From contig JAGWZD010000032.1 of NCBI GenBank assembly GCA_018968995.1, positions 1-11,887 on the forward strand: a DNA stretch of 11,887 nucleotides. Direction: 5' to 3'. This document shows, piece after piece, positions 2,325 to 11,887 of this stretch; position 1 is the stretch's first letter, and every line of letters begins with the position of its first letter. The notes beneath the pieces are model-generated. The model was not told the origin of the DNA. It worked only from the letters and a program-made list of their open reading frames with translations, and ran no database searches. The position numbers were made by a program, and so were the translations under genes. Source of the DNA: Bdellovibrionales bacterium (GTDB lineage Bacteria; Bdellovibrionota; UBA1018).

Positions 2325-2402
2325 CTCGAAAGCGTGTAGGTCGGAAACGATCTCGAGGGTTCGTTCGCGAAGCGGCCGCAGGCCATCCCTCCCTCTCCGC
2401 CA
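2325..2402 (+). repeat. tRNA-Ser(CGA) 3'-half repeat with T-loop insertion, copy 1
   Basis: The block reads as the 3' half of a tRNA-Ser: anticodon loop CTCGAAA (2325-2331, anticodon CGA), 3' anticodon stem GCGTG (2332-2336), a 5-bp variable arm GGTCG/CGATC with GAAA loop (2339-2352), T-stem GAGGG (2355-2359) and CCCTC (2387-2391), acceptor strand CCTCTCC (2392-2398), discriminator G and encoded CCA (2400-2402). Bases upstream of the loop do not pair with the anticodon stem, and no 5' half exists, so it cannot be a tRNA. The T loop is enlarged by about 20 bases (2364-2384), containing TTCGCGAA, GCGGCCGC and a GGCC-GCA-GGCC hairpin. Other copies lie at 4105 and 11834. It is most likely an att-type remnant of tRNA-Ser integration that has become a repeat. 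Confidence 0.75.
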
Positions 2403-2471
2403 TTTCATGGCGTCGCCTGTCCACTGGACAGGTCGGGCGCTCGGACCCTCCTGGCCATCACGTCTCCGCCA
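2403..2471 (+). repeat. GC-rich spacer with a hairpin and a degenerate tRNA-tail-like end
   Basis: The stretch follows directly after copy 1 of the tRNA tail. It has a perfect 7-bp hairpin CCTGTCC-ACT-GGACAGG (2416-2432). It ends in GGCCATCACGTCTCCGCCA (2453-2471), which resembles the end of the full repeat (GGCCATC, then CTCTCCGCCA) and stops at a CCA like it. Its length, 69 bases, is close to the 72-base core. It could be a diverged tandem copy of the tail, but similarity is visible only at the 3' end. The lipoprotein leader block begins three bases later. Confidence 0.35.
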
Positions 2472-2473
2472 GC

Positions 2474-2595
2474 AAAGACTGGCAAAAAAATAAAAAAAAA
2501 TAACCTACCAGCCATGCAACTTTTCAAAATTAATTCGTGGGTGGGTTTAGTCTTGGGTCTAGCGCTTTCGAGTGTTCTCGTGGGGTGCGGGGGGA
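2474..2595 (+). repeat. duplicated promoter plus signal-peptide block, copy 1
   Basis: This block and 3399-3522 are identical except for a poly-A run of 9 versus 11 A. It covers the promoter, the short pre-start region and the codons for the first 27 residues of each lipoprotein, through the lipobox Cys. Similarity stops abruptly after the GGGGGGA at 2595; the mature coding parts are unrelated. Such a sharp edge just after the signal sequence points to recent duplication or conversion of a leader module. Confidence 0.9.
2479..2506 (+). promoter_or_regulatory. candidate promoter of lipoprotein gene 1 with A-rich spacer
   Basis: CTGGCA (2479-2484) and TAACCT (2501-2506) stand 16 bases apart, and the spacer is almost pure A (A6, T, A9). 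Only seven bases, ACCAGCC, lie between the -10 box and the ATG at 2514, so transcription would begin at or beside the ATG. No Shine-Dalgarno motif is present, which agrees with a leaderless message. The same arrangement at 3404-3433 has an 18-base spacer. Confidence 0.45.
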
Positions 2596-3347
2596 GCGAG
2601 CCGACCTCGAGCTCTAGTTTAAGCGCCGGAGGCCTTCCGATCACTCGTTATGAATCTTCAAGCACTGCTGGAAAAAACACCGTTTTCTCAGTCAGTTGCG
2701 GTGCTAATGAGAAACTTCTCGCTGGTGGGTGTTCGTGCGCTAATGGCGATGGCATCACCTCAAGCCTGCGCACCTCGGGGGAAGGGTGGGGCTGTACTTG
2801 CGATGACGCTCCGTCTTCAGGTGCTCACAAAGTTGTGGCTCTCTGTACCAGTAAATCGGGAGTAACGCGGACTGAGTCCTCCTCTAGCACGACTCAGGCA
2901 GGTTGTGGTGATGAACCTATACTTCGGCTAGGTTCAGGGGTTCTCTGCGGAGCCAGTGTCGCTGCTGCTACAAAGATTAGACGAATCGGCGAGTCTTCAG
3001 CCTCCTCGGCTAGAGGTGAGTGTCAAGATGGAACCAGCTTGATCACCGTGACTGCTCAGTGTGTGACGGGTGGGCCGACTGTTAGAAGCCCAGCTGGAGA
3101 GTGGGGCTATGTGTATGAATCAAAAGACACCACGATGACTGTGCCTAGCCAACCTTCTACGGCCACTCTTTCGTGTCCTTCAGGCAAGTTACTCGTAGGT
3201 GGTTCCTGTGATTGTCCGACCGGCGATTATCTTTACGAGTATTATCCTTCCTCAGACTTCCGCACCTTGCAGTGCAAGTGTTCCAATAATCTGTCTGTTC
3301 CCGGTGCGGCAACCTACATTCGCTCGCGAGTGCTTTGTGCAGACTGA
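2514..3347 (+). CDS. cysteine-rich lipoprotein with duplicated six-Cys modules
   Basis: The 277-residue product has a lipoprotein signal, MQLFKINSWVGLVLGLALSS then VLVGC, with lipobox LVGC at 22-25; Cys25 would be lipidated and the mature protein anchored in a membrane. The rest has 16 Cys. A module at about 60-111 (C62, C73, C75, C94, C96, C111; LLAGGCSCANGD) is repeated at about 219-275 (C221, C232, C234, C254, C256, C275; LLVGGSCDCPTGD), with nearly the same spacing. A four-Cys segment (131-183) between them may be a decayed third module. The even number of Cys and their pairing suggest disulfide-bonded extracytoplasmic repeats. I recognise no family. Serine/threonine-rich linkers (31-60, 112-128) join the parts. 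The ATG is fixed by the signal peptide. Confidence 0.85.
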   Translation: MQLFKINSWVGLVLGLALSSVLVGCGGSEPTSSSSLSAGGLPITRYESSSTAGKNTVFSVSCGANEKLLAGGCSCANGDGITSSLRTSGEGWGCTCDDAPSSGAHKVVALCTSKSGVTRTESSSSTTQAGCGDEPILRLGSGVLCGASVAAATKIRRIGESSASSARGECQDGTSLITVTAQCVTGGPTVRSPAGEWGYVYESKDTTMTVPSQPSTATLSCPSGKLLVGGSCDCPTGDYLYEYYPSSDFRTLQCKCSNNLSVPGAATYIRSRVLCAD

Positions 3348-3398: not shown

Positions 3399-3522
3399 AA
3401 AGACTGGCAAAAAAATAAAAAAAAAAATAACCTACCAGCCATGCAACTTTTCAAAATTAATTCGTGGGTGGGTTTAGTCTTGGGTCTAGCGCTTTCGAGT
3501 GTTCTCGTGGGGTGCGGGGGGA
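3399..3522 (+). repeat. duplicated promoter plus signal-peptide block, copy 2
   Basis: This is the second copy of the block at 2474-2595, longer by two A residues in the promoter spacer and otherwise identical. It begins 51 bases after the stop of lipoprotein gene 1, with no clear terminator between. The hairpin GCCAG-CAAAGA-CTGGC that overlaps the left edge of copy 1 is not kept here. Confidence 0.9.
3404..3433 (+). promoter_or_regulatory. candidate promoter of lipoprotein gene 2 with longer A-rich spacer
   Basis: CTGGCA (3404-3409) and TAACCT (3428-3433) are separated by 18 bases (A6, T, A11), and seven bases follow before the ATG at 3441. Relative to copy 1 the A run is longer by two. Spacers of 16 and 18 lie on either side of the usual 17, so a slip of one A in either copy could change promoter strength. 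Confidence 0.45.
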
Positions 3523-3938
3523 ACCAGTTTGCTACTTATGCAGTGACCAAGATCACTTGTAATGGGGTGGATTTGCAGGACCCCCAACCAGCCCCTTCTG
3601 ATTTAGAGATCAAGCTTGAGGAAAAGAGTGGTTATCTCATGTATCGGAACTGGGGTGCACAGACCGGTTGTACGGCCATTTTTTCGCAGTCTTACAGCTG
3701 GACAAGTGACACCTCTGTCACAGGAACCTTCTCTAGCTGCTCTACGACAGGAACTTGTTCGCTGGATCCTTGCACCGCCTGGGCGAGTCACGACCTAGGT
3801 CCAATCACGATCGAAGACCAAGACGGAAAGATTTCAGTCCTTCAGTCTGTAAGCCTTAAGCCAAATCAATTCGGCGAAGAATGCACCGACAGTGGTGAAG
3901 GCGGCCTTCCTGCGAAGCTCAATCTTCAGCGGTTGTAG
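3441..3938 (+). CDS. lipoprotein of unknown function, same leader as the preceding gene
   Basis: The 165-residue product carries the same 27-residue lipoprotein leader (lipobox LVGC, Cys25) as the upstream gene, then diverges completely. The mature part has six further Cys (40, 77, 100, 106, 111, 148) and alternates polar and hydrophobic residues in a way that suggests a beta-rich extracytoplasmic domain (for example GYLMYRNWGAQTGCTAIF and SVTGTFSSCSTTGTC). No family is recognised, and the six-Cys module of its neighbour is absent. Both genes have their own promoter and the same orientation. Their only common part is the leader, so the pair looks like one secretion and expression module attached to two different cargo domains. 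Confidence 0.8.
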   Translation: MQLFKINSWVGLVLGLALSSVLVGCGGNQFATYAVTKITCNGVDLQDPQPAPSDLEIKLEEKSGYLMYRNWGAQTGCTAIFSQSYSWTSDTSVTGTFSSCSTTGTCSLDPCTAWASHDLGPITIEDQDGKISVLQSVSLKPNQFGEECTDSGEGGLPAKLNLQRL

Positions 3939-4104: not shown

Positions 4105-4176
4105 AGCGTGTAGGTCGGAAACGATCTCGAGGGTTCGTTCGCGAAGCGGCCGCAGGCCATCCCTCCCTCTCCGCCA
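4105..4176 (+). repeat. tRNA-Ser 3'-half repeat with T-loop insertion, copy 2
   Basis: From AGCGTG to CCGCCA it is identical to 2331-2402, including the enlarged T loop (4138-4158), variable arm, acceptor strand and CCA. The bases upstream are not the 2187-type arm: CGCTGT-GCGA-ACAGCG, a 6-bp hairpin, ends inside the repeat, and only the CGAA element of the anticodon loop is recognisable. The shared part thus begins at the anticodon loop in every copy. Immediately downstream is CTAATAAAAAAATC, then the transporter region. Confidence 0.75.
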
Positions 4177-4207: not shown

Positions 4208-4300
4208 CTATTGTGCGGAATCGTCTGGTCCCGACGCGTAGGCCTCTAGGTACTGAGTGATCTGCTCATTGTTCAACTTTCCTGCTAGTCGGGCACTCTC
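4208..4300 (-). other. protein-like alternate frame at the end of the transporter gene (possible frameshift)
   Basis: On the minus strand, the frame shifted relative to the transporter reads LTNFVSQLESARLAGKLNNE then QITQYLEAYASGPDDSAQ and stops at the TAG at 4208-4210. It looks like a natural hydrophilic C-terminal tail, whereas the transporter's own frame ends in a low-complexity LQTSSASSRVPD. A one-base indel around 4310-4320 would join transporter and tail. The alternative is chance, since the frame also stays open further upstream, where the transporter frame is clearly genuine. Confidence 0.3.
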
Positions 4301-5490
4301 GAGCTGGCTGACGAAGTTTGTAAGTCCCGCAAGCCCACCCAAAACCGAAGTAAAAGAGAGGAAATCACCGCGCACGCAGCAGAAAATCCGAACGCCATCG
4401 ATGGTGAAACGGACTGATACAGCCAGCCAAAGAGAACTGAGGCCGGGAGCAAAAAAATCCCTGAGATAAGATTAAACCACCCGAAGGCCGTTCCACGGCG
4501 CGCTTCGGGCGCAAGATCTGCAACCAGTGCGCGCTCTACCCCCTCAGTGGCTGCAACGAAAATTCCATACAGTGGAAAAATCCAGAAGACCATTCGAGGC
4601 GTCGTCTGCACCGTGCCCAGAGCAAAATAGTAAGCGCCAAAGGCCAGATATCCAAAGAGCAGTAGTCTGCCTCGGCCGATCCGATCGGACCAGGCCGCAA
4701 GCGGTGTCGAGAAGAGCGTAGCGACCGCCGATACCATCGCCCAAATTAGGGGGACCTGCTCCTTAGGAACTCCTAACTCGGAGGCGCGCAGAAGCAGGAA
4801 CATGTTTGAGGAATTTCCGAGAGAAAAAAGACCAATCACCACCAGATACCTTTTGAATGCCACTGGCATTCCGTCGAGACTCCAGCGGATTTTTCCTGAA
4901 ATGGGAGGCGCCGAGGGCGATGGTTCATGAAGAGACAGGGTCAAGATGAGGCAGAGAGATGCGGGAATAATCGACCAGAGGAAGAAGGAGCGAAGCGGAA
5001 CTTGAGCCGACAGCATCAGATACGCCACCACAGGTCCGATCACTGCGCCGGCATTATCCATGGCGCGGTGAAATCCGAACACGAGCCCTCTTTGATCTGC
5101 CGGTACGCTGGATGCGAGTAGGGTATCGCGAGGTGCTGAGCGCAGGCCCTTTCCGATGCGATCGGCGAATCGAATCAACAACAGCATAGGCCAGCTTCCA
5201 ATGAATGCGATGAGTGGCCGGCCTAGGCCCGCGATGCCATATCCGAAGACCATCCAGGGCTTAGATCGACGCGTTCGATCCATGATCACCCCGGAAAAAA
5301 GCTTTAATAAACTAGCCGTGGACTCGGCGACTCCCTCGATCCAGCCGATGGCCTTGGGGCCTGCCATCAAGACCGAAGAAAGATAGAGCGGCAGGATAGG
5401 ATAGATCATCTCACTGGCACTATCGTTGACTAGGCTGATGAATCCGATCAGCCAGACGGTTTTTGGGAGTGCCTTTAGTGTCTTTCTCAT
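4285..5490 (-). CDS. major facilitator superfamily transporter
   Basis: The protein of about 401 residues is a typical 12-helix MFS carrier of the inner membrane. With numbering from the GTG at 5496, the loop 2-3 motif is SGVIMDRTRRSKP (68-80). A second conserved stretch is ADRIGKGLRSAPRDTLLASS (111-130), followed by DQRGLVFGFHRAMDNAGAVI (134-153). That pattern marks an MFS subgroup common in Proteobacteria whose substrate I cannot assign. The second half repeats the fold, with a loop 8-9 counterpart AWSDRIGRGRLLLFGYLAFG. The start could be the ATG at 5490 or a GTG two codons upstream (5496); neither has a good ribosome site. The last residues may be affected by a frameshift. It is transcribed alone, away from the + strand gene at 5900. 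Confidence 0.88.
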   Translation of the reverse strand: MRKTLKALPKTVWLIGFISLVNDSASEMIYPILPLYLSSVLMAGPKAIGWIEGVAESTASLLKLFSGVIMDRTRRSKPWMVFGYGIAGLGRPLIAFIGSWPMLLLIRFADRIGKGLRSAPRDTLLASSVPADQRGLVFGFHRAMDNAGAVIGPVVAYLMLSAQVPLRSFFLWSIIPASLCLILTLSLHEPSPSAPPISGKIRWSLDGMPVAFKRYLVVIGLFSLGNSSNMFLLLRASELGVPKEQVPLIWAMVSAVATLFSTPLAAWSDRIGRGRLLLFGYLAFGAYYFALGTVQTTPRMVFWIFPLYGIFVAATEGVERALVADLAPEARRGTAFGWFNLISGIFLLPASVLFGWLYQSVSPSMAFGFSAACAVISSLLLRFWVGLRDLQTSSASSRVPD

Positions 5491-5496
5491 GAACAC

Positions 5497-5899
5497 GAAA
5501 TTACCGCATGACGCGGCCTGATGCTTCGCTTGTTTTCATGAGTTATTGAGACCATGAACACTGAGAGCTCATCGGAAATGCGTGGGTCGGACGCTTGGGG
5601 CTTCTTGTTACTCCTGTCTCCTCATGGAAGAGACAGGATTTCTGATTTTGGTAAAGCTCGCTATATTCACTGGGAGGAAGACACGACTTCGTTCGCTTCA
5701 TGAGATGAATGGGTGGACGACTCTTCGGCCTCGCCGTTAGGCCCACGCAGGCTTCGAGCAGTGCAGCGATCGCCTGACCGATAGGTCCAAAAACCTCAAT
5801 ATTTCATGCATCTAGGATTGAGGAACGGTGCTATTGACGACTTGCGTTATTGGCCTGTATCCAGTCGCCAACAGCAATCTCTAGGGAGAGTGAAGTTCA
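5497..5899. other. 403-base intergenic region with a strong hairpin
   Basis: The region separates two divergent genes. It contains a perfect 9-bp hairpin, TCCTGTCTC (5612-5620) and GAGACAGGA (5630-5638) with a 9-base loop, followed by TTTCTGATTTT, so it resembles a weak Rho-independent terminator for + strand transcription, although no + strand gene upstream needs one. A 49-codon frame at 5554-5703 spans the hairpin but lacks a ribosome site. The likely promoter of the gene at 5900 occupies 5834-5863. Nothing else is evident. Confidence 0.5.
5834..5863 (+). promoter_or_regulatory. candidate promoter and ribosome site of the exported-protein gene
   Basis: TTGACG (5834-5839) is a near-consensus -35 box. 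TATCCA (5858-5863), 18 bases on, is a weaker -10 box. The transcript would start near 5870. AGGGAG at 5883-5888, 11 bases before the ATG at 5900, can serve as Shine-Dalgarno. The tandem repeat TGAAGTTCAA (5891-5900, 5901-5910) straddles the start codon. Confidence 0.45.
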
Positions 5900-6406
5900 A
5901 TGAAGTTCAAAAGTGCGGCGCTGGTGGCGGGCTTAGTTTTACAGTCTGTTTTCGTGAGCGGGGCTCAAGCCGCTGAAGTATCGGACAGTCGGGGAATGAC
6001 TCCTGTGTTCGTGAGCCGAAGCTTTCGATTCACTTTGGATGAGTGCTTGGCACAATTGAACACCCAGGCAGCGGCAGTCACCTACAGCTGCACTGTAGCG
6101 ATGCCTGTTCCGCCGCGGATCGCGTTTCCGTATCAGACCGGTGCCTTGTACGATAACCCACCTTTTTCAACCGTGTCGGCTTCACTGCCCACGACTGTTT
6201 CAGGCGTGAGTGGCGTTGCTAACGTGAAAATCTATCCAACCACCGAGAGCATGGTTCTTGTTTTTCAATCCGCGACTCGAAACCCGGCGACTGGTGGATT
6301 TTACCAGCTACGTCGCGCCGACGTTGTGAATGAGATCACTCGTATCTGGAACGAAAACTCGCTCAGTACTCGTACTTGGCGAATCATGATCTGGTTGATG
6401 TCTTAA
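5900..6406 (+). CDS. exported protein of unknown function
   Basis: The 168-residue product begins with a Sec signal peptide (MKFKSAALVAGLVLQSVFVS then GAQA, cleavage probably after residue 24). The mature protein of about 144 residues has two Cys (49 and 64) that could form a disulfide. A central proline/serine-rich part (71-110) is followed by a hydrophobic strand region VKIYPTTESMVLVFQS. The C-terminus is tryptophan-rich (IWNENSLSTRTWRIMIWLMS). I recognise no family. It is a single gene with its own promoter, convergent with the antiporter gene that ends at 6566. Confidence 0.75.
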   Translation: MKFKSAALVAGLVLQSVFVSGAQAAEVSDSRGMTPVFVSRSFRFTLDECLAQLNTQAAAVTYSCTVAMPVPPRIAFPYQTGALYDNPPFSTVSASLPTTVSGVSGVANVKIYPTTESMVLVFQSATRNPATGGFYQLRRADVVNEITRIWNENSLSTRTWRIMIWLMS

Positions 6407-6440
6407 AGAGCGCTAGACTCAGTGAGTTTGAGTATTCCTA

Positions 6441-6472
6441 GCAAAAGAGTGCCCCTTCGATTCGTAGGGCAC
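6441..6472 (-). terminator. Rho-independent terminator of the antiporter gene
   Basis: On the minus strand, GTGCCC (6472-6467) and GGGCAC (6454-6449) form a 6-bp stem with a 12-base loop, followed by TCTTTTGC (6448-6441). It lies about 95 bases beyond the antiporter stop. On the + strand the stem is not followed by T residues, so it would serve the exported-protein gene less well. Confidence 0.55.
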
Positions 6473-6565
6473 GGATCTCTAAATCGGCTTGGTGCGACTG
6501 TAGCTCGTGACGAGGTGGTTTCTCTGCACGTGGAAATTCAGAATGCCTTGATCTCGATGCGCAAC

Positions 6566-8404
6566 TTAAGGTGGGGATGAAGCGATTCGTGCAACGGCTT
6601 CTCGCGAACCAAGCGGACAGACCACCCAAATAATATCGCCGTGCTTGAGTTCGGTATTGGATTCTGGGTTTGTGATTCTAATTCCGCCGCGTTCGATCCC
6701 GACTACTAGCCCTCCCAAGGTCTCGCGTACACTGGCGTCACGGATGGTTCGACCATCCAAGTACGACCCTTCGCGAATTAGGGCAGCTTCCAGGACATAT
6801 TCTGGATTAGAGACAGTGTCTTGCGCACTTGTCATGGGAGACTCAGCCAGCAGGCGTAGAGCCTGAGTTTGTTGATCACTTCCGAGAGCCACAAGTTGAT
6901 CGGAGGGGAGAAGAATTCGGTCAGGATCTGGCGCAATAATCGAGCTGCCAGTTCGGTTGATGACAAGAACATTTGCTCCAGTTAGTCCTCGGACGTTTAC
7001 TTCGCGGAGAGTTTTTCCTGAAAGAGTCGATCCAGGCTCAATGCTAAATGCATCTAAATGAGCGTTCCAGGGCGCTAGCTCTCGAAAGGGCAGGGGCTCG
7101 GCCCTTAAAGCCCGGTAAACTAAATCTTTAAGTTCAGAGAGTCGCGCACGGAGTCCACTTTTTTGGGGCGAAACTCGCACGCGCTGAAGAGCGAGCTCAT
7201 AGCGACTCAGGAGCTCCTGTAGACTCAGCGGTGTCACTCCTTTCAATGCTCTTGCGGCGCCCGTAGAGCCGCGAATCATGTAGGGTGTGGTGAAGCTGGT
7301 CACTACTGCTACCGAGACCGCCAGAGGATAGAGAAACTCGCTCGTAACCCCAAGGCTGGCGCCCAGGCTCGCAATGATAAATGAAAACTCACCCACTTGG
7401 GCCATGCTAAAGCCCACTTGAACAGATTCTTCAGAGCTCCTGCCAGCGATGAGCGCGCCAAGACCAGTAGCAATAGTTTTTCCAATAATAGTCACCAGAG
7501 TCACGATAAGAACGACCCAATAATTGTCTGCCAACACGGAAAGATTGAAGAGCATTCCGACAGAGACGAAAAATATCGCCCCGAAAAGATTTCTAACGGG
7601 TTCTATTAAGTGCTCAATCTTCTTACCTTCGGGGGATTCTGCGAGGATTGCCCCCGCGAGGAAAGCGCCCAGAGCGGCGGAATAACCTAACCAATCACTG
7701 AGTAAAACAAGCCCAAGACAAATGCCTAAGGAGAAAATCAGAAGCGCCTCGGCATCAAGCCAGCGTCTCGACATCTTTAAAATCCTGGGAATGAAATAGA
7801 TGCCCGAGACGATCACGACAGGCAGAATGAGGGTGAGCTTGCCGAGGGCTGCAAGTAGCGTGAATCCTTGAATCTCGCGAGTAATCGCAATGGTCGATAA
7901 TGCAGCCAAGATCAGAATCGCAACGAGGTCTTCAACAATTAGTACTCCAAAGACCGTTTGAGCAAACCGTTGAGACTTCAGCTTTAATTCATCAAACGCT
8001 TTGATGATCATGGTCGTTGAGGAAATTGCGAGAATACCGCCAAGGAAAACGCTATCCATGGTCGACCAGCCCAGCGCCTTGCCGCAAAAGATGCCGATCA
8101 TACCCATGATGGCAACTTCAATTAGTGCGATGGTCGCCGAGGCAAAACCAGTCTGAAGTAACCTGGGGAAGCTAAACTCCAATCCCAGAGAAAAGAGCAA
8201 AAAAACAATTCCAAGCTCAGCGAGAATCTGAATATTTGGAGTATCGGTGACTGTTGGAATCCAAGGAACGTGAGGTCCAGCAAGAATCCCAACTAAGATA
8301 TAACCCAGGACAACGGGTTGCCCCAGGCGTCGGAAGACAAGGCTTATGACGCCAGCCAAACCGAGGATGATTGCGAGATCCTTAAGGAGTAAGGGCAGGT
8401 GCAT
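6566..8404 (-). CDS. CPA2-family cation/proton antiporter (Kef/Rosb-like) with two RCK-C domains
   Basis: The 612-residue protein has an N-terminal Na+/H+ exchanger domain (about 1-380, around 12 helices) with CPA2 hallmarks: LGYILVGILAGP (33-44), ISSTTM (127-132), VEDLVAI (157-163) and AQVGEFSFI (335-343). Two TrkA-C (RCK-C) domains follow at about 451-520 (FSIEPGSTLSGKTLREVNV) and 537-608 (ALIREGSYLDGRTIRDASV). The nucleotide-binding RCK-N/TrkA-N Rossmann domain of KefB/KefC is absent. Family knowledge points to potassium or sodium exchange against protons across the inner membrane, gated by a small ligand bound to RCK-C; the exact ion and ligand cannot be read here. It lies 46 bases downstream of the exported-protein gene on the same strand and may be co-transcribed with it. 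A terminator follows. Confidence 0.92.
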   Translation of the reverse strand: MHLPLLLKDLAIILGLAGVISLVFRRLGQPVVLGYILVGILAGPHVPWIPTVTDTPNIQILAELGIVFLLFSLGLEFSFPRLLQTGFASATIALIEVAIMGMIGIFCGKALGWSTMDSVFLGGILAISSTTMIIKAFDELKLKSQRFAQTVFGVLIVEDLVAILILAALSTIAITREIQGFTLLAALGKLTLILPVVIVSGIYFIPRILKMSRRWLDAEALLIFSLGICLGLVLLSDWLGYSAALGAFLAGAILAESPEGKKIEHLIEPVRNLFGAIFFVSVGMLFNLSVLADNYWVVLIVTLVTIIGKTIATGLGALIAGRSSEESVQVGFSMAQVGEFSFIIASLGASLGVTSEFLYPLAVSVAVVTSFTTPYMIRGSTGAARALKGVTPLSLQELLSRYELALQRVRVSPQKSGLRARLSELKDLVYRALRAEPLPFRELAPWNAHLDAFSIEPGSTLSGKTLREVNVRGLTGANVLVINRTGSSIIAPDPDRILLPSDQLVALGSDQQTQALRLLAESPMTSAQDTVSNPEYVLEAALIREGSYLDGRTIRDASVRETLGGLVVGIERGGIRITNPESNTELKHGDIIWVVCPLGSREAVARIASSPP

Positions 8405-8450
8405 AGTCCTAGGTCATCCTATCACGACATCCGGGACAAGGCTTTTTCGT

Positions 8451-9548
8451 CTACGGATTACACTTCGACCCAGCCGGCGAGCCCGTCTTTCCAATATTTT
8501 GGAGGCTTTGAATGAGCTTATTGAGCTTGTTGCTCACGGGCTGGTCAGGAAGTTCCTTCTCGGGAGGAATCAAATAGTCTTTGACGGTATCCAGCATTCC
8601 GGCAGCGCTAAGAATATTCACCAGCATGACAATGTTCGCTGGAGCTAGGGGAGCAATAAATAAACTGAGGGCTGCCGAGGTGCCGATGGCCGAAACCACC
8701 GCGCACACCACCTCAACCTTTTTGCCAAAAGGTAGATCTCTGAAGGCGCCTTTGGCTCCTCTTAAGGTTTTCGAAAGACTAAACCCCTTAATGACACCGC
8801 TCAGGTCCTTCACTCTTTTGACGATTCGATTCCACGCCTCGGCGGGTTTTCTAACGGCGAAAGCGACACCCTCGATAAATCGAACAGTAGTCTTTACGAT
8901 CCCCACGACAGGAACTACTGTGGCGGCCAAAACCCCCTTTCCAAGACCAACCCCGCAAGATGCCGTAGCGGCCAGAATGTCGCGATGAGATCCTTTGCTG
9001 CTTGGGTCTCTCTTTGGCTTCCGAGAGTTCGTTAGAATCTCATTCTTGCCAGCGTAAGCACTAGGAATGAAGAAATCCAAAACCTGAAAAGAAGCGGTCT
9101 TTCCAATAGAGTTCAGAGAGTCGGCAAACTTCTTCACGCCTTCTTTGTCGATACCTGTAAAATAAATCGCGTAGGGCAGTTTGCTTGGGGTTTGTCCGTG
9201 AAACAGGTACCCCTCTTCGGTGGCAATCACGTTCTGTGTAAAATCAGAACTCTTGGGCTTCAGGCAAAGCTTCAAAAAAGCCATGGGCCCGAGTTCGGCC
9301 GGGGTGAAGACTTCGTCCACTCCGTGAAAGTCTTTACCTGAGCCGAATTCCGGATTTGCCCCGCCAAGGCCCGCGCTCTCAAAAATCTCCCGGATCGATT
9401 CGAGCTCGGATCGAACCTCGCTCTGATTCAGCAAAGCAGCATCGCACTCGGTGCTTTCGTATTGAAGATCTTCAGCTTGTGGCGAAGCGTGTGCCAAGGG
9501 AATGACGCCCAGCATGGCGCTCCAGACAAGGATCAAGGCAGAAGACAT
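8451..9548 (-). CDS. exported protein with C-terminal hydrophobic helices, function unknown
   Basis: From the ATG at 9548 the product has 365 residues, starting with a Sec signal peptide (MSSALILVWSAMLGVIPLAH then A). A GTG at 9566 would add six residues, but it coincides with the predicted transcription start, and AGAG lies just before the ATG, so I prefer 9548. The first 190 or so residues are soluble and extracytoplasmic. A glycine/valine-rich hydrophobic segment follows (about 198-226 in the longer numbering), then a basic linker (240-285), and a long hydrophobic stretch (about 285-326) that could be one or two membrane helices. The tail is polar, ending near a single Cys. I recognise no family. 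The membrane-protein gene lies upstream (51 bases to its stop) and the antiporter downstream, all on the same strand. Confidence 0.78.
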   Translation of the reverse strand: MSSALILVWSAMLGVIPLAHASPQAEDLQYESTECDAALLNQSEVRSELESIREIFESAGLGGANPEFGSGKDFHGVDEVFTPAELGPMAFLKLCLKPKSSDFTQNVIATEEGYLFHGQTPSKLPYAIYFTGIDKEGVKKFADSLNSIGKTASFQVLDFFIPSAYAGKNEILTNSRKPKRDPSSKGSHRDILAATASCGVGLGKGVLAATVVPVVGIVKTTVRFIEGVAFAVRKPAEAWNRIVKRVKDLSGVIKGFSLSKTLRGAKGAFRDLPFGKKVEVVCAVVSAIGTSAALSLFIAPLAPANIVMLVNILSAAGMLDTVKDYLIPPEKELPDQPVSNKLNKLIQSLQNIGKTGSPAGSKCNP

Positions 9549-9572
9549 TTCTCTAAACACACGCACAAATCT

Positions 9573-9601
9573 ATTATCCGAGAATTCAGGAATCGAGTTA
9601 A
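9573..9601 (-). promoter_or_regulatory. promoter of the 8451-9548 gene
   Basis: On the minus strand TTAACT (9601-9596) and GATAAT (9578-9573) are 17 bases apart, a good sigma-70 match (four of six and five of six). The start site would be near 9566, giving an 18-base leader ending in TTTAGAGAA before the ATG at 9548. The gene can therefore be expressed separately from the membrane-protein gene upstream, and the antiporter may be read from here too. Confidence 0.55.
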
Positions 9602-9618
9602 TACCCCGGCCTCCCTAG

Positions 9619-10296
9619 TTATCTTTTTCTCTCCGACATCGCTGAAGCGTTTACTTTTTTAAAGTGCCCATCAAGTTGCGACTGGAGATCGATCTGCGCG
9701 CCCGATTGAGCGGCAAATGGAATAATCTGAGACTCCTGTAACTCCCTGGGGCTGTTTCGTGTGGCCGATGAAAGAACCATCAAACTGAACATTAAGAAAC
9801 CCAGAACCGTTGCGACAACTCTCCTGACCATGGAGATCACGGTGGTTGGGAGGGCCCTCTTTGCAAACCAAAACGCCCAGTAAAATCCGACTACACAATG
9901 CAGCACCACCACAACAAGCGATGCCAGCCAGCGCGGCCGGAAGTAAAAGTAGAAAATAGGAGATAGGTCGTTCACCAAAAAAAAGCCTATCGTGCCGAAA
10001 CTCGCGGCGATGAACGTGGCAGTCAGTCGAAAAGTCTGAGTTTGTAGTCGAAGAAAAGCCGAAGAAGCAGATGCAGCCAACCAGACCCAAAAGGTGGTAA
10101 CCACGGACGTAGCTAAAATGCCCATGAATTCCACTTGAATCGGAGTGAGGAGGCTTTTGACTCCAAAATAGAGCGACCAGAGGCCAAAAAAGGCAGCGAC
10201 AACTGCCCAGTGCACTCTGTATTCGGCGCGGGTGACGGGAGCGGGAGCAAGCTTCCCAGCAATGTATTTCGACATGTCGACTTCTATGATCCGCAT
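9619..10296 (-). CDS. inner-membrane protein with five predicted helices
   Basis: The 225-residue protein has hydrophobic segments at about 30-50, 56-76, 91-110, 121-146 and 158-177. A polar N-terminus of about 28 residues precedes them and a 48-residue polar C-terminal tail, rich in Gln, Ser and Lys, follows. There is no signal peptide beyond the first helix and no family motif that I recognise. The start may be the ATG at 10296 or one seven codons in (10275, MSKYIAGK). The first choice makes its start codon share bases with the divergent gene at 10295, so 10275 or a different start for the other gene may be right. No terminator is visible in the 51 bases before the next gene on the strand. 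Another long minus-strand frame (9671-10345) is a shadow. Confidence 0.72.
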   Translation of the reverse strand: MRIIEVDMSKYIAGKLAPAPVTRAEYRVHWAVVAAFFGLWSLYFGVKSLLTPIQVEFMGILATSVVTTFWVWLAASASSAFLRLQTQTFRLTATFIAASFGTIGFFLVNDLSPIFYFYFRPRWLASLVVVVLHCVVGFYWAFWFAKRALPTTVISMVRRVVATVLGFLMFSLMVLSSATRNSPRELQESQIIPFAAQSGAQIDLQSQLDGHFKKVNASAMSERKR

Positions 10297-10654
10297 GTCT
10301 TATTCTAGTTCCGAGAAGATGGTTCTCCAGCAAGCGCTTTCCCAATTGGAGGTCAAGCTGAGTCAGGCCACGTTCGAGGACGGCTCTAAAAAAATGCGCC
10401 TTTATCGAGGCTGGAGAGGTGAAGGAGATGGTCCGGCTATTTGTTTCTTGCCGACGTACAAGCTAGCTTATCAGAATGGGAGCCTTGTGGTTGAAGGATC
10501 CGATACGGTGAACTCAACCTTCTCGAGCAACCATTCCGCATGCAATTCCGTGGTGAATCGCACCGTGGGGCGAGATTTTTCTACCCAACCTGATACGTTC
10601 ACTTCCGATAAAGTTCATCCTTCGAAAATTCTGATTTCGGGACTTTGTAAGTAA
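10295..10654 (+). CDS. small protein of unknown function, possibly a 5'-truncated gene
   Basis: From the ATG at 10295 the product has 119 residues, MSYSSSEKMVLQQALSQLEV onward, with three Cys and a polar, protein-like composition (for example GWRGEGDGPAICFLPTYKLA). An upstream ATG at 10232 would place 21 more codons antisense to the membrane-protein gene, which is unlikely. No signal peptide and no ribosome site are seen, and the promoter would have to lie within the divergent gene. This suggests that the 5' part has been lost and that the remaining frame is a remnant. No family is recognised. The 121 bases after its stop hold short inverted repeats (GTGGT-AGCG-ACCAC at 10761-10774) but no gene or clear terminator. 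Confidence 0.45.
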   Translation: MSYSSSEKMVLQQALSQLEVKLSQATFEDGSKKMRLYRGWRGEGDGPAICFLPTYKLAYQNGSLVVEGSDTVNSTFSSNHSACNSVVNRTVGRDFSTQPDTFTSDKVHPSKILISGLCK

Positions 10655-10775: not shown

Positions 10776-10931
10776 TCACGCCGCCTTCTTCATCCGATTC
10801 AGTGCATCCAGGATGAAGACTCGAATCAGCACCTGGTAAGGAATGCCCTGCTTGGCGGCGAGTATCCTGTCTAAGTCCATTTCAAAAGCCTGATCATACT
10901 GTTTCTGAGATTTTGCGGAAGACGTCTTCAT
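10776..10931 (-). CDS. small CopG/BrnA-like antitoxin
   Basis: The 51-residue product, MKTSSAKSQKQYDQAFEMDL then DRILAAKQGIPYQVLIRVFI, ends in the pattern (A-A-K-Q-G-I-P-Y-Q-V-L-I) typical of ribbon-helix-helix antitoxins of the CopG/BrnA type, which bind DNA and usually pair with a BrnT-like toxin. No BrnT gene is present. I chose the ATG at 10931; a TTG at 10970, whose T overlaps the TGA of the upstream antitoxin, would add 13 residues and allow translational coupling. It is the third gene of the toxin-antitoxin operon. The N-terminal region looks short for the family. A decayed relative lies at 170-257. Confidence 0.6.
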   Translation of the reverse strand: MKTSSAKSQKQYDQAFEMDLDRILAAKQGIPYQVLIRVFILDALNRMKKAA

Positions 10932-11287: not shown

Positions 11288-11621
11288 TTTTCGTCCTCCG
11301 CAAATAATCGGTCCAAAATGCCTTTGCCTTCAGAATGTCCTGCTCCTGACTGGACTTGTCGCCACCAGTCAGCAGGATCACGAGCTGAATGCCGTCTATG
11401 CCGAATTAAATCCGGTATCCGCTTCCGAAGGTGAGCCGAAGCTCCATCACCCCTTCACCTACCGCCTTCGCGTCTCCGAAATTGCCTGCCTCGATACGGG
11501 CAATCCGGGCATTGATTCGAGCGACAGTGGTTTTATCTCGCAACGAATCGAGCCATTTTTTAAATGGCCGCTGGCCTTCCTCGGTTTCATAGATGGCAAT
11601 CAGCTTGGGCTCCGCAGCCAT
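11280..11621 (-). pseudogene. HigB/RelE-type toxin (COG3657, Gp49-like) with an internal stop
   Basis: The full frame of 113 sense-plus-stop codons reads as a complete family member: ETEEGQRPFKKWLDSLRDKT near the start, ARINARIARIEAGNFGDAKA, VGEGVMELRLTFGSGYRI, then a TAA at 11408-11406 (codon 72), then FGIDGIQLVILLTGGDKSSQ and EQDILKAKAFWTDYL to the natural stop at 11280. Family members have Tyr after Y-R-(I/V), so TAT or TAC has become TAA by one base change. Everything after the stop is still in frame and well conserved, so the mutation is recent. The 71-residue product would lack the final beta strands and the C-terminal helix, including part of the mRNA-cleaving surface. It is expected to be inactive unless the stop is suppressed or is a sequencing error. 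Confidence 0.85.
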
Positions 11622-11695: not shown

Positions 11696-11833
11696 TGTGA
11701 ACAGAAAGTGAACACGACCGGCAAAAAACAGGCAAAAACCATCAAAGTCGGTCGCAATAAAAACGCCGCCAACTATCGGTTATTGTTGCTAAGTTTCGGT
11801 TTTCACAAAACTTCCCAGGAACACCGAAAATTC
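11696..11833 (+). repeat. left arm of the long dispersed repeat, copy 2
   Basis: This is the counterpart of 2187-2324, ungapped, with seven substitutions in its first 80 bases. The inverted repeat CGACCG/CGGTCG and the internal AAGTTT/AAACTT pair are kept; the second half of the GTGAACA direct repeat is intact while the first reads GTGAACAG. It begins 75 bases upstream of the toxin-antitoxin operon's start codon, mirroring the 93 bases between copy 1 and the ATPase gene. Confidence 0.8.
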
Positions 11834-11887
11834 CTCGAAAGCGTGTAGGTCGGAAACGATCTCGAGGGTTCGTTCGCGAAGCGGCCG
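11834..11887 (+). repeat. tRNA-Ser 3'-half repeat with T-loop insertion, copy 3 (cut by window end)
   Basis: CTCGAAA at 11834-11840, the GCGTG stem half, the variable arm and GAGGG TTCG are identical to copy 1, and the T-loop insertion starts at 11873. The window ends inside the insertion at GCGGCCG, so the acceptor strand and CCA lie beyond the edge. Orientation is the same as the other two copies. Confidence 0.75.

Follow-up and report, generated by a model that had tools for sequence, protein, structure and literature searches.

Why does the 3′ half of one tRNA gene recur, always in the same orientation, between unrelated accessory genes on a short stretch of bacterial DNA? The DNA analysed here (the window, 11,887 nucleotides) is the whole of contig C452 in a Bdellovibrionales draft genome, G000 (2.41 Mb in 453 contigs, 4.45% contamination). 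It contains three 3′ halves of tRNA-Ser(CGA), extending from the anticodon loop to CCA, at positions 2325–2402, 4105–4176 and 11834–11887, in the locations and the shared orientation given in the original prediction. The copies had also been called identical where they overlap, and this proved correct. Cores 1 and 2 match at 72 of 72 bases (2331–2402 and 4105–4176), and copies 1 and 3 at 186 of 192 (97%; 2187–2378 and 11696–11887), with all six mismatches upstream of the tRNA tail and none inside it. A search of the G000 genome with the 216-base module detected exactly these three places. The motif TCCGCCA occurs three times in the window, each time on the plus strand at the end of a tail. No tRNA was detected in the window by ARAGORN, or by Rfam at E ≤ 1.

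The T loop of these tails consists of TTCG, 21 bases and AT, whereas that of the intact tRNA-Ser(CGA) gene in a second species of the genus (G001) consists of TTCG, A and AT. The insert (2364–2384, plus strand) thus replaces one base by 21, a net gain of 20 that agrees with the roughly 20 extra bases first noticed, and it has no counterpart in the six intact tRNA-Ser(CGA) genes compared. It had been described as rich in palindromes. Two 8-mer palindromes are indeed present, but they are statistically weak, being reached by 220 of 20000 shuffles, and the stretch that was scored (2359–2390) was picked after the fact.

The repeated modules are longer than the tails, since about 140 bases upstream, unnoticed at first, are common to copies 1 and 3. 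This arm begins with TGTGAACA, contains the pair GTGAACANAAAGTGAACAC and extends to the anticodon loop. In module 1 (arm at 2187–2325, core at 2325–2402, plus strand) the direct pair GTGAACACAAAGTGAACAC lies at 2188–2206 and is followed by A-rich DNA and inverted repeats. Module 3 (11696–11887, plus strand) has both arm and core, and is interrupted by the end of the contig within the T-loop insert. Core 2 (4105–4176, plus strand) is a tail alone. It has neither the arm nor anticodon-loop sequence and starts just after the loop, and the bases before the tail differ within the anticodon loop itself (left flank TGCGAAC versus CTCGAA). In core 1 and in the G001 copy the tail spans the full extent from anticodon loop to tRNA 3′ end, and core 3 agrees up to its truncation. 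Core 1 is followed by a spacer of 69 bases (2403–2471, plus strand), common with G001, which includes the 17-base palindrome CCTGTCCACTGGACAGG at 2416–2432 and ends in a fourth, degenerate tail (2453–2471, GGCCATC...TCTCCGCCA) that had also gone unnoticed. The local score of this tail against the end of core 1 is 11, a value reached by none of 11423 other plus-strand windows of the contig. The match takes in the last bases of the T-loop insert, and the remnant was therefore probably derived from an insert-type tail. The original observation is confirmed, and was understated.

The genes separated by the tails are varied. To the left of module 1, on the minus strand (927–2093), stands a gene for an AAA_14 and DUF4143 ATPase, assigned by PADLOC to the candidate defence family PDC-S01; among the matches listed, its relatives include one from a Bdellovibrionota bacterium at 61%. 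Between cores 1 and 2 are two lipoprotein-like genes on the plus strand, at 2514–3347 (no Pfam match) and 3441–3938. Both start with the same leader and signal peptide, encoded in a 117-base repeat (2484–2600 and 3411–3527, 97% identical), and their mature parts differ. No further copy of the leader was found in G000, and it is absent from G001 and G002. From core 2 to module 3 (4285–10654) the cargo comprises an MFS transporter, unknown genes and an Na/H exchanger with a TrkA_C domain. For the exchanger the match in G001 reaches just 43%, G002 (a 78% complete genome) has none, and the best, in G003, is 53%, so it, at least, is not closely shared within the genus. Adjoining module 3 is an addiction-module antidote-like gene (PF21716; 10967–11287, minus strand). 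Re-use of the tail as a boundary between unrelated accessory genes, as the original prediction had proposed, is supported by this anatomy alone. Pfam scans of 14 distinct window proteins (from 46 mechanical open reading frames of at least 60 amino acids) revealed no genes for integration or transfer.

Some smaller features were seen beside the cargo. A short reading frame upstream of the antidote-like gene (11406–11621) has no Pfam match and looks by eye like the first part of a toxin–antitoxin partner, ending early. A 78-base repeat (180–257 and 10851–10928, 87%) has its second copy in a small reading frame beside the antidote-like gene, and its copy at 180–257 resembles a remnant.

ATPase genes of the DUF4143 type are strongly multiplied in the family. 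At E ≤ 1e-20, G001 has 17 matches, G007 at least 30 (33 of 82 candidates scored) and G012 at least 28 (33 of 98 scored); none was found in viral contigs. Several of these genes have short inverted repeats just 5′ of their start, seen by eye, as if they were self-regulated. None of 30 DUF4143 loci, including the window's own, has a tRNA gene. One (L104) matched a loose normal-tail pattern but is unlike a tail; that pattern is blind to the enlarged-loop tail, which two loci (L075 and L077) carry. The multiplication of DUF4143 genes and the tRNA tails are treated here as separate matters. Upstream of the DUF4143 start (2094–2186 in the window, and the corresponding stretch of G001), two CCAC-N3-GTGG boxes can be seen by eye in G001, and weaker ones in G000, which may constitute an operator. 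G001 also has an 80-base repeat with a GC-rich palindrome (85%; L014 1389–1467 on contig C120 and L157 2476–2555 on C77), one copy near an ISL3-type transposase and the other upstream of another DUF4143 gene.

Contig C120 of G001 carries the DUF4143 gene, arm, tail and spacer in identical order, and breaks off inside the ATPase gene. Window base 2471, at the CCA of the degenerate tail, is precisely where the alignment between the two species stops; beyond it the G000 sequence continues into the lipoprotein leader and that of G001 into the end of a helix-turn-helix gene. The DUF4143 segment is identical at 604 of 619 bases (97.6%; 98% at the protein level over 206 residues). Arm (126/139) and promoter (82/93) diverge more than the gene, and the spacer matches at 63/69. 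Within the core the variable arm agrees at only 7/17 positions, the T-loop insert at 20/21 and the tail to CCA at 18/18. Beside the anticodon loop, a perfect inverted repeat of 10 bases, its halves separated by 7, lies in the G001 arm; 2 of 2000 mononucleotide shuffles reached it, and it is not kept in the G000 arm (best 6 bases). LigA of the two species has 81% protein identity, and the gene preceding tRNA-Ser(CGA) 58%. Identity of the ATPase block is far above both values, which indicates that module 1 and the DUF4143 block have moved recently between the species; the background comparisons are few, these two genes, but the gap is wide.

The variable arm connects the module with its host. 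The intact tRNA-Ser(CGA) gene of G001 (C84:2315–2404) shares with the G001 module an exact run of 40 bases, from one base before the anticodon loop to TTCG, and also, beyond the insert, the final 18 bases. In the module the variable arm of 18 bases (TTTGCCTTAACGGGTAAC) is exactly that of G001's own gene, and is absent from the five other CGA genes compared (G002, G007, G010, G029 and G045), the nearest being that of G002 at 14 of 18. The module thus met the host tRNA gene, or the reverse, either after transfer or in the G001 lineage. The intact tRNA-Ser(CGA) with a matching half, to which the original prediction had looked, exists in G001 (the insert excepted), but none was found in the G000 assembly. 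Contig C438 of G000 breaks off within the final codons of the gene preceding tRNA-Ser(CGA) in G001, and no link between C438 and C452 was found. Because G000's own tRNA-Ser(CGA) is not assembled, the position of the array downstream of that gene in G000 is unproven. G000 does have a tRNA-Ser(TGA), which should also read UCG by wobble, so that a cell might do without the CGA gene. Were a tail with 21 bases for one in its T loop exchanged into the gene, no normal tRNA could be rebuilt.

These comparisons bear on two ways in which the repeats might have arisen independently of repeated integration. The first is homologous recombination or gene conversion, spreading copies of a single old displaced tail, site-specific recombinases having played no part since then. 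Identities of 72 and 192 bases are long enough in principle for RecA-type exchange, and no Phage_integrase (PF00589) place lies on the contig. However, the identity breaks off at the anticodon loop or beside it and at CCA, and the 18 bases of variable arm were swapped between identical flanks of about 13 and 10 bases, which is short for such a process. We consider this account unlikely. The second is that the contig is chimeric, or was binned from another species near G001. The 453-contig draft with its measurable contamination, the break of the contig inside the repeat, and an ATPase gene much closer to G001 than LigA is, would all fit an artefact. They have to be set against the 6 differences in 192 bases between copies 1 and 3, the different flanks of copy 2, the poor match of the contig's exchanger in G001 and the differing variable arms; moreover G001, a separate genome, shows copy 1 with the same flanks up to base 2471. 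An assembly or binning artefact is very improbable, and assembly duplication as the source of the copies was rejected.

Phage_integrase is found at seven places in G000, none of them on this contig, and the tyrosine recombinase for which the original prediction had suggested looking at one end of the array was not found there. Around 14 such places in G000, G001 and G002 (about 1.5 kb on each side where the contig allows) neither the arm nor an insert-type core was present in any fetched locus; a single match, at locus L051, covered 21 bases at the end of an ordinary tRNA-Ser(TGA). An integrase in G001 adjoins tRNA-Ser(TGA). Comparable scars occur elsewhere in the G000 genome: on contig C96 an integrase is followed by a tRNA-Ala(TGC)-like half, seen by eye, which extends from anticodon loop to CCA, has a normal T loop and gave only a weak tmRNA match in Rfam. 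The GTGAACA pair suggests itself as a common integrase arm site. A relaxed version of the arm pair, searched in viral contigs, yielded 37 loci, none within 1 kb of an integrase as detected by a home-made profile and most, by eye, in repetitive stretches; this idea was dropped as unsupported. As no integrase was found on the contig and the module is absent near the 14 integrase places, we class the locus as a remnant attachment site and not an intact island.

The repeats are probably attachment-site scars of integrative elements. In the explanation that we favour, a tyrosine recombinase would recognise the tRNA-Ser(CGA) gene and cross over in the anticodon loop, so that a full unit would comprise one element arm and the displaced 3′ half of the tRNA. 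Successive integrations may then have lined up such ends in head-to-tail order with unrelated cargo in between, separating the candidate defence ATPase, the lipoproteins, the transporters and the addiction-module antidote. With the integrases lost or elsewhere, the segments could at most be mobilised in trans or by recombination between repeats. An origin of the tails from att sites, as first proposed, is supported by their limits at the anticodon loop and CCA, the host-matched variable arm in G001 and the end of the shared block at CCA, and further by the different neighbours in the two species and the high identity of the gene that moved. The integrases beside a tRNA-Ala-like half in G000 and beside tRNA-Ser(TGA) in G001, and the published parallels described below, also speak for the explanation. 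Counting against the explanation are the contig without a Phage_integrase match, the G000 tRNA gene that was not found, core 2 without loop and arm, the inability of the insert-type tail to restore a tRNA, and the location of arm pairs away from viral integrases. The original interpretation is, overall, partly supported.

The T-loop insert would, on the reading that we prefer, be damage that arose a single time, in a displaced tail, and has been copied with it ever since. Alternatively the insert could be functional, having turned a tRNA attachment site into a specialised cassette site. Such a site would recombine with others of its type but no longer to any use with the tRNA gene, and a small cassette array would result, independent of the gene that founded it. 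All tails seen in the two species carry the insert; a second insert-type tail (GGCCATC...CCGCCA) marks the end of the shared block; and the same-orientation copies have unrelated cargo between them. Yet at 20/21 its conservation, compared with 126/139 in the arm and 63/69 in the spacer, gives no clear sign of extra constraint, the folding of the T arm is near shuffle level (z −1.33 and −1.25), the site is known from two genomes only and no recombinase was found, and the variable arm of G001 shows contact with a tRNA gene. A functional insert is unlikely in our estimation. With the tail taken as a dedicated cassette boundary, the insert would disqualify it as part of a tRNA and leave tail-to-tail exchange only. 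An integron-like cassette array of this kind, born of a tRNA scar and shuttling a candidate defence gene between species, must be rated a long shot, and plain copied damage is preferred.

The original prediction had gone further, comparing the added hairpin with the folded single-stranded site of integron attC. Two small hairpins are predicted in the insert in both species, and folding somewhat better than that of shuffled sequence is seen for the arm alone (z −1.68, equalled by 10 of 200 shuffles) and for the palindrome spacer (z −1.88, 6 of 200). The DNA fold of the T arm itself has the z values of −1.33 in G000 and −1.25 in G001 already cited, and that of the whole half 0.09, and no attC core site (RYYYAAC or GTTRRRY) occurs on either strand of the module in either genome. 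That the tail and arm form a folded RNA or single-strand site is hardly credible. Folding of the attC type was rejected, since the consensus is missing and the tail folds like shuffled sequence, and so was a functional RNA, Rfam giving no match at the repeat at E ≤ 1.

The module has a narrow distribution. Among 192 genomes including G000, the 216-base query matched eight, and the module itself is present only in G000 and G001. Five of the other six matches are ordinary tRNA-Ser genes, and the sixth (L010) is a 24-base match apparently in a coding stretch. The enlarged-T-loop tail was found in 2 of 58 genomes of the class, and both the palindrome CCTGTCCACTGGACAGG and the arm pair GTGAACACAAAGTGAACAC in 2 of 368 genomes of the phylum, in each case G000 and G001. 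Distant blastn searches gave no match for the 216-base module in plasmids or for 401 bases around it in phage records, and the tail, enlarged-T-loop and arm patterns were not found in viral contigs. Matches of the 21-base insert in contigs of three other organisms cover 21–22 bases only and were taken as chance. A degenerate tRNA-Ser tail in G002 (L021; C72 2041–2070) has neither the insert nor a tRNA gene, and is perhaps an old scar at the same target.

How does this array compare with known systems? In integrons, a repeated site (attC) lies between small gene segments, and the window likewise has a repeated site between small gene segments; it differs in that its module has neither attC core sites nor a clear folded-site signal. 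No report of T-loop inserts in displaced tRNA fragments was found in the literature searched, in which most subscription papers are not covered. Both species retain the insert although a tail that bears it cannot restore a normal tRNA, and this is the unusual feature of the locus. The variable arm records the host tRNA gene last touched, and the insert identifies the lineage to which the site belongs; should the insert prove important, it would represent a route from a tRNA attachment site to a cassette site.

The nearest parallels are among genomic islands. In the portion of the Islander report drawn on here (PMC4383910), anticodon-type sites account for 2083 of 3919 islands and displaced tDNA fragments are described. 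Tandems are known there too (125 with at least two and 4 with at least three), as are 148 islands with damage, the type described in that portion being a small deletion 3 bp upstream of the discriminator. The window resembles the anticodon-type fragments in having a 3′ half, from anticodon loop to CCA, at one end of a mobile segment, and differs from those described in the 20-base T-loop insert, the failure to find an integrase in the segments and the unassembled intact gene of G000. The ssrA islands of Dehalococcoides, as far as the part of the account used here goes (PMC3146451), have in-line repeats of tails of the same gene, and 15 of them are without an integration module. The window has the same arrangement of several in-line tails of one gene with differing cargo between them, although in Dehalococcoides the gene is that for tmRNA, the repeat is 20 bp and the recombinase is a serine recombinase. 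Cis-mobilizable elements (CIMEs) and site-specific accretion are reviewed in PMC5704250; like CIMEs as treated in the relevant part of that review, the segments of the window are flanked by att sites, in tandem, and without integration or transfer genes, and unlike them they have no related integrative element that was found and only a putative excision. We conclude that the array is real, mobile and tRNA-derived, without detectable integrases, and that it shows a tRNA scar array moving accessory genes in a little-studied bacterial lineage; arrays of this kind are known, and it is the T-loop insert, together with a clear record of transfer, that makes this one unusual.
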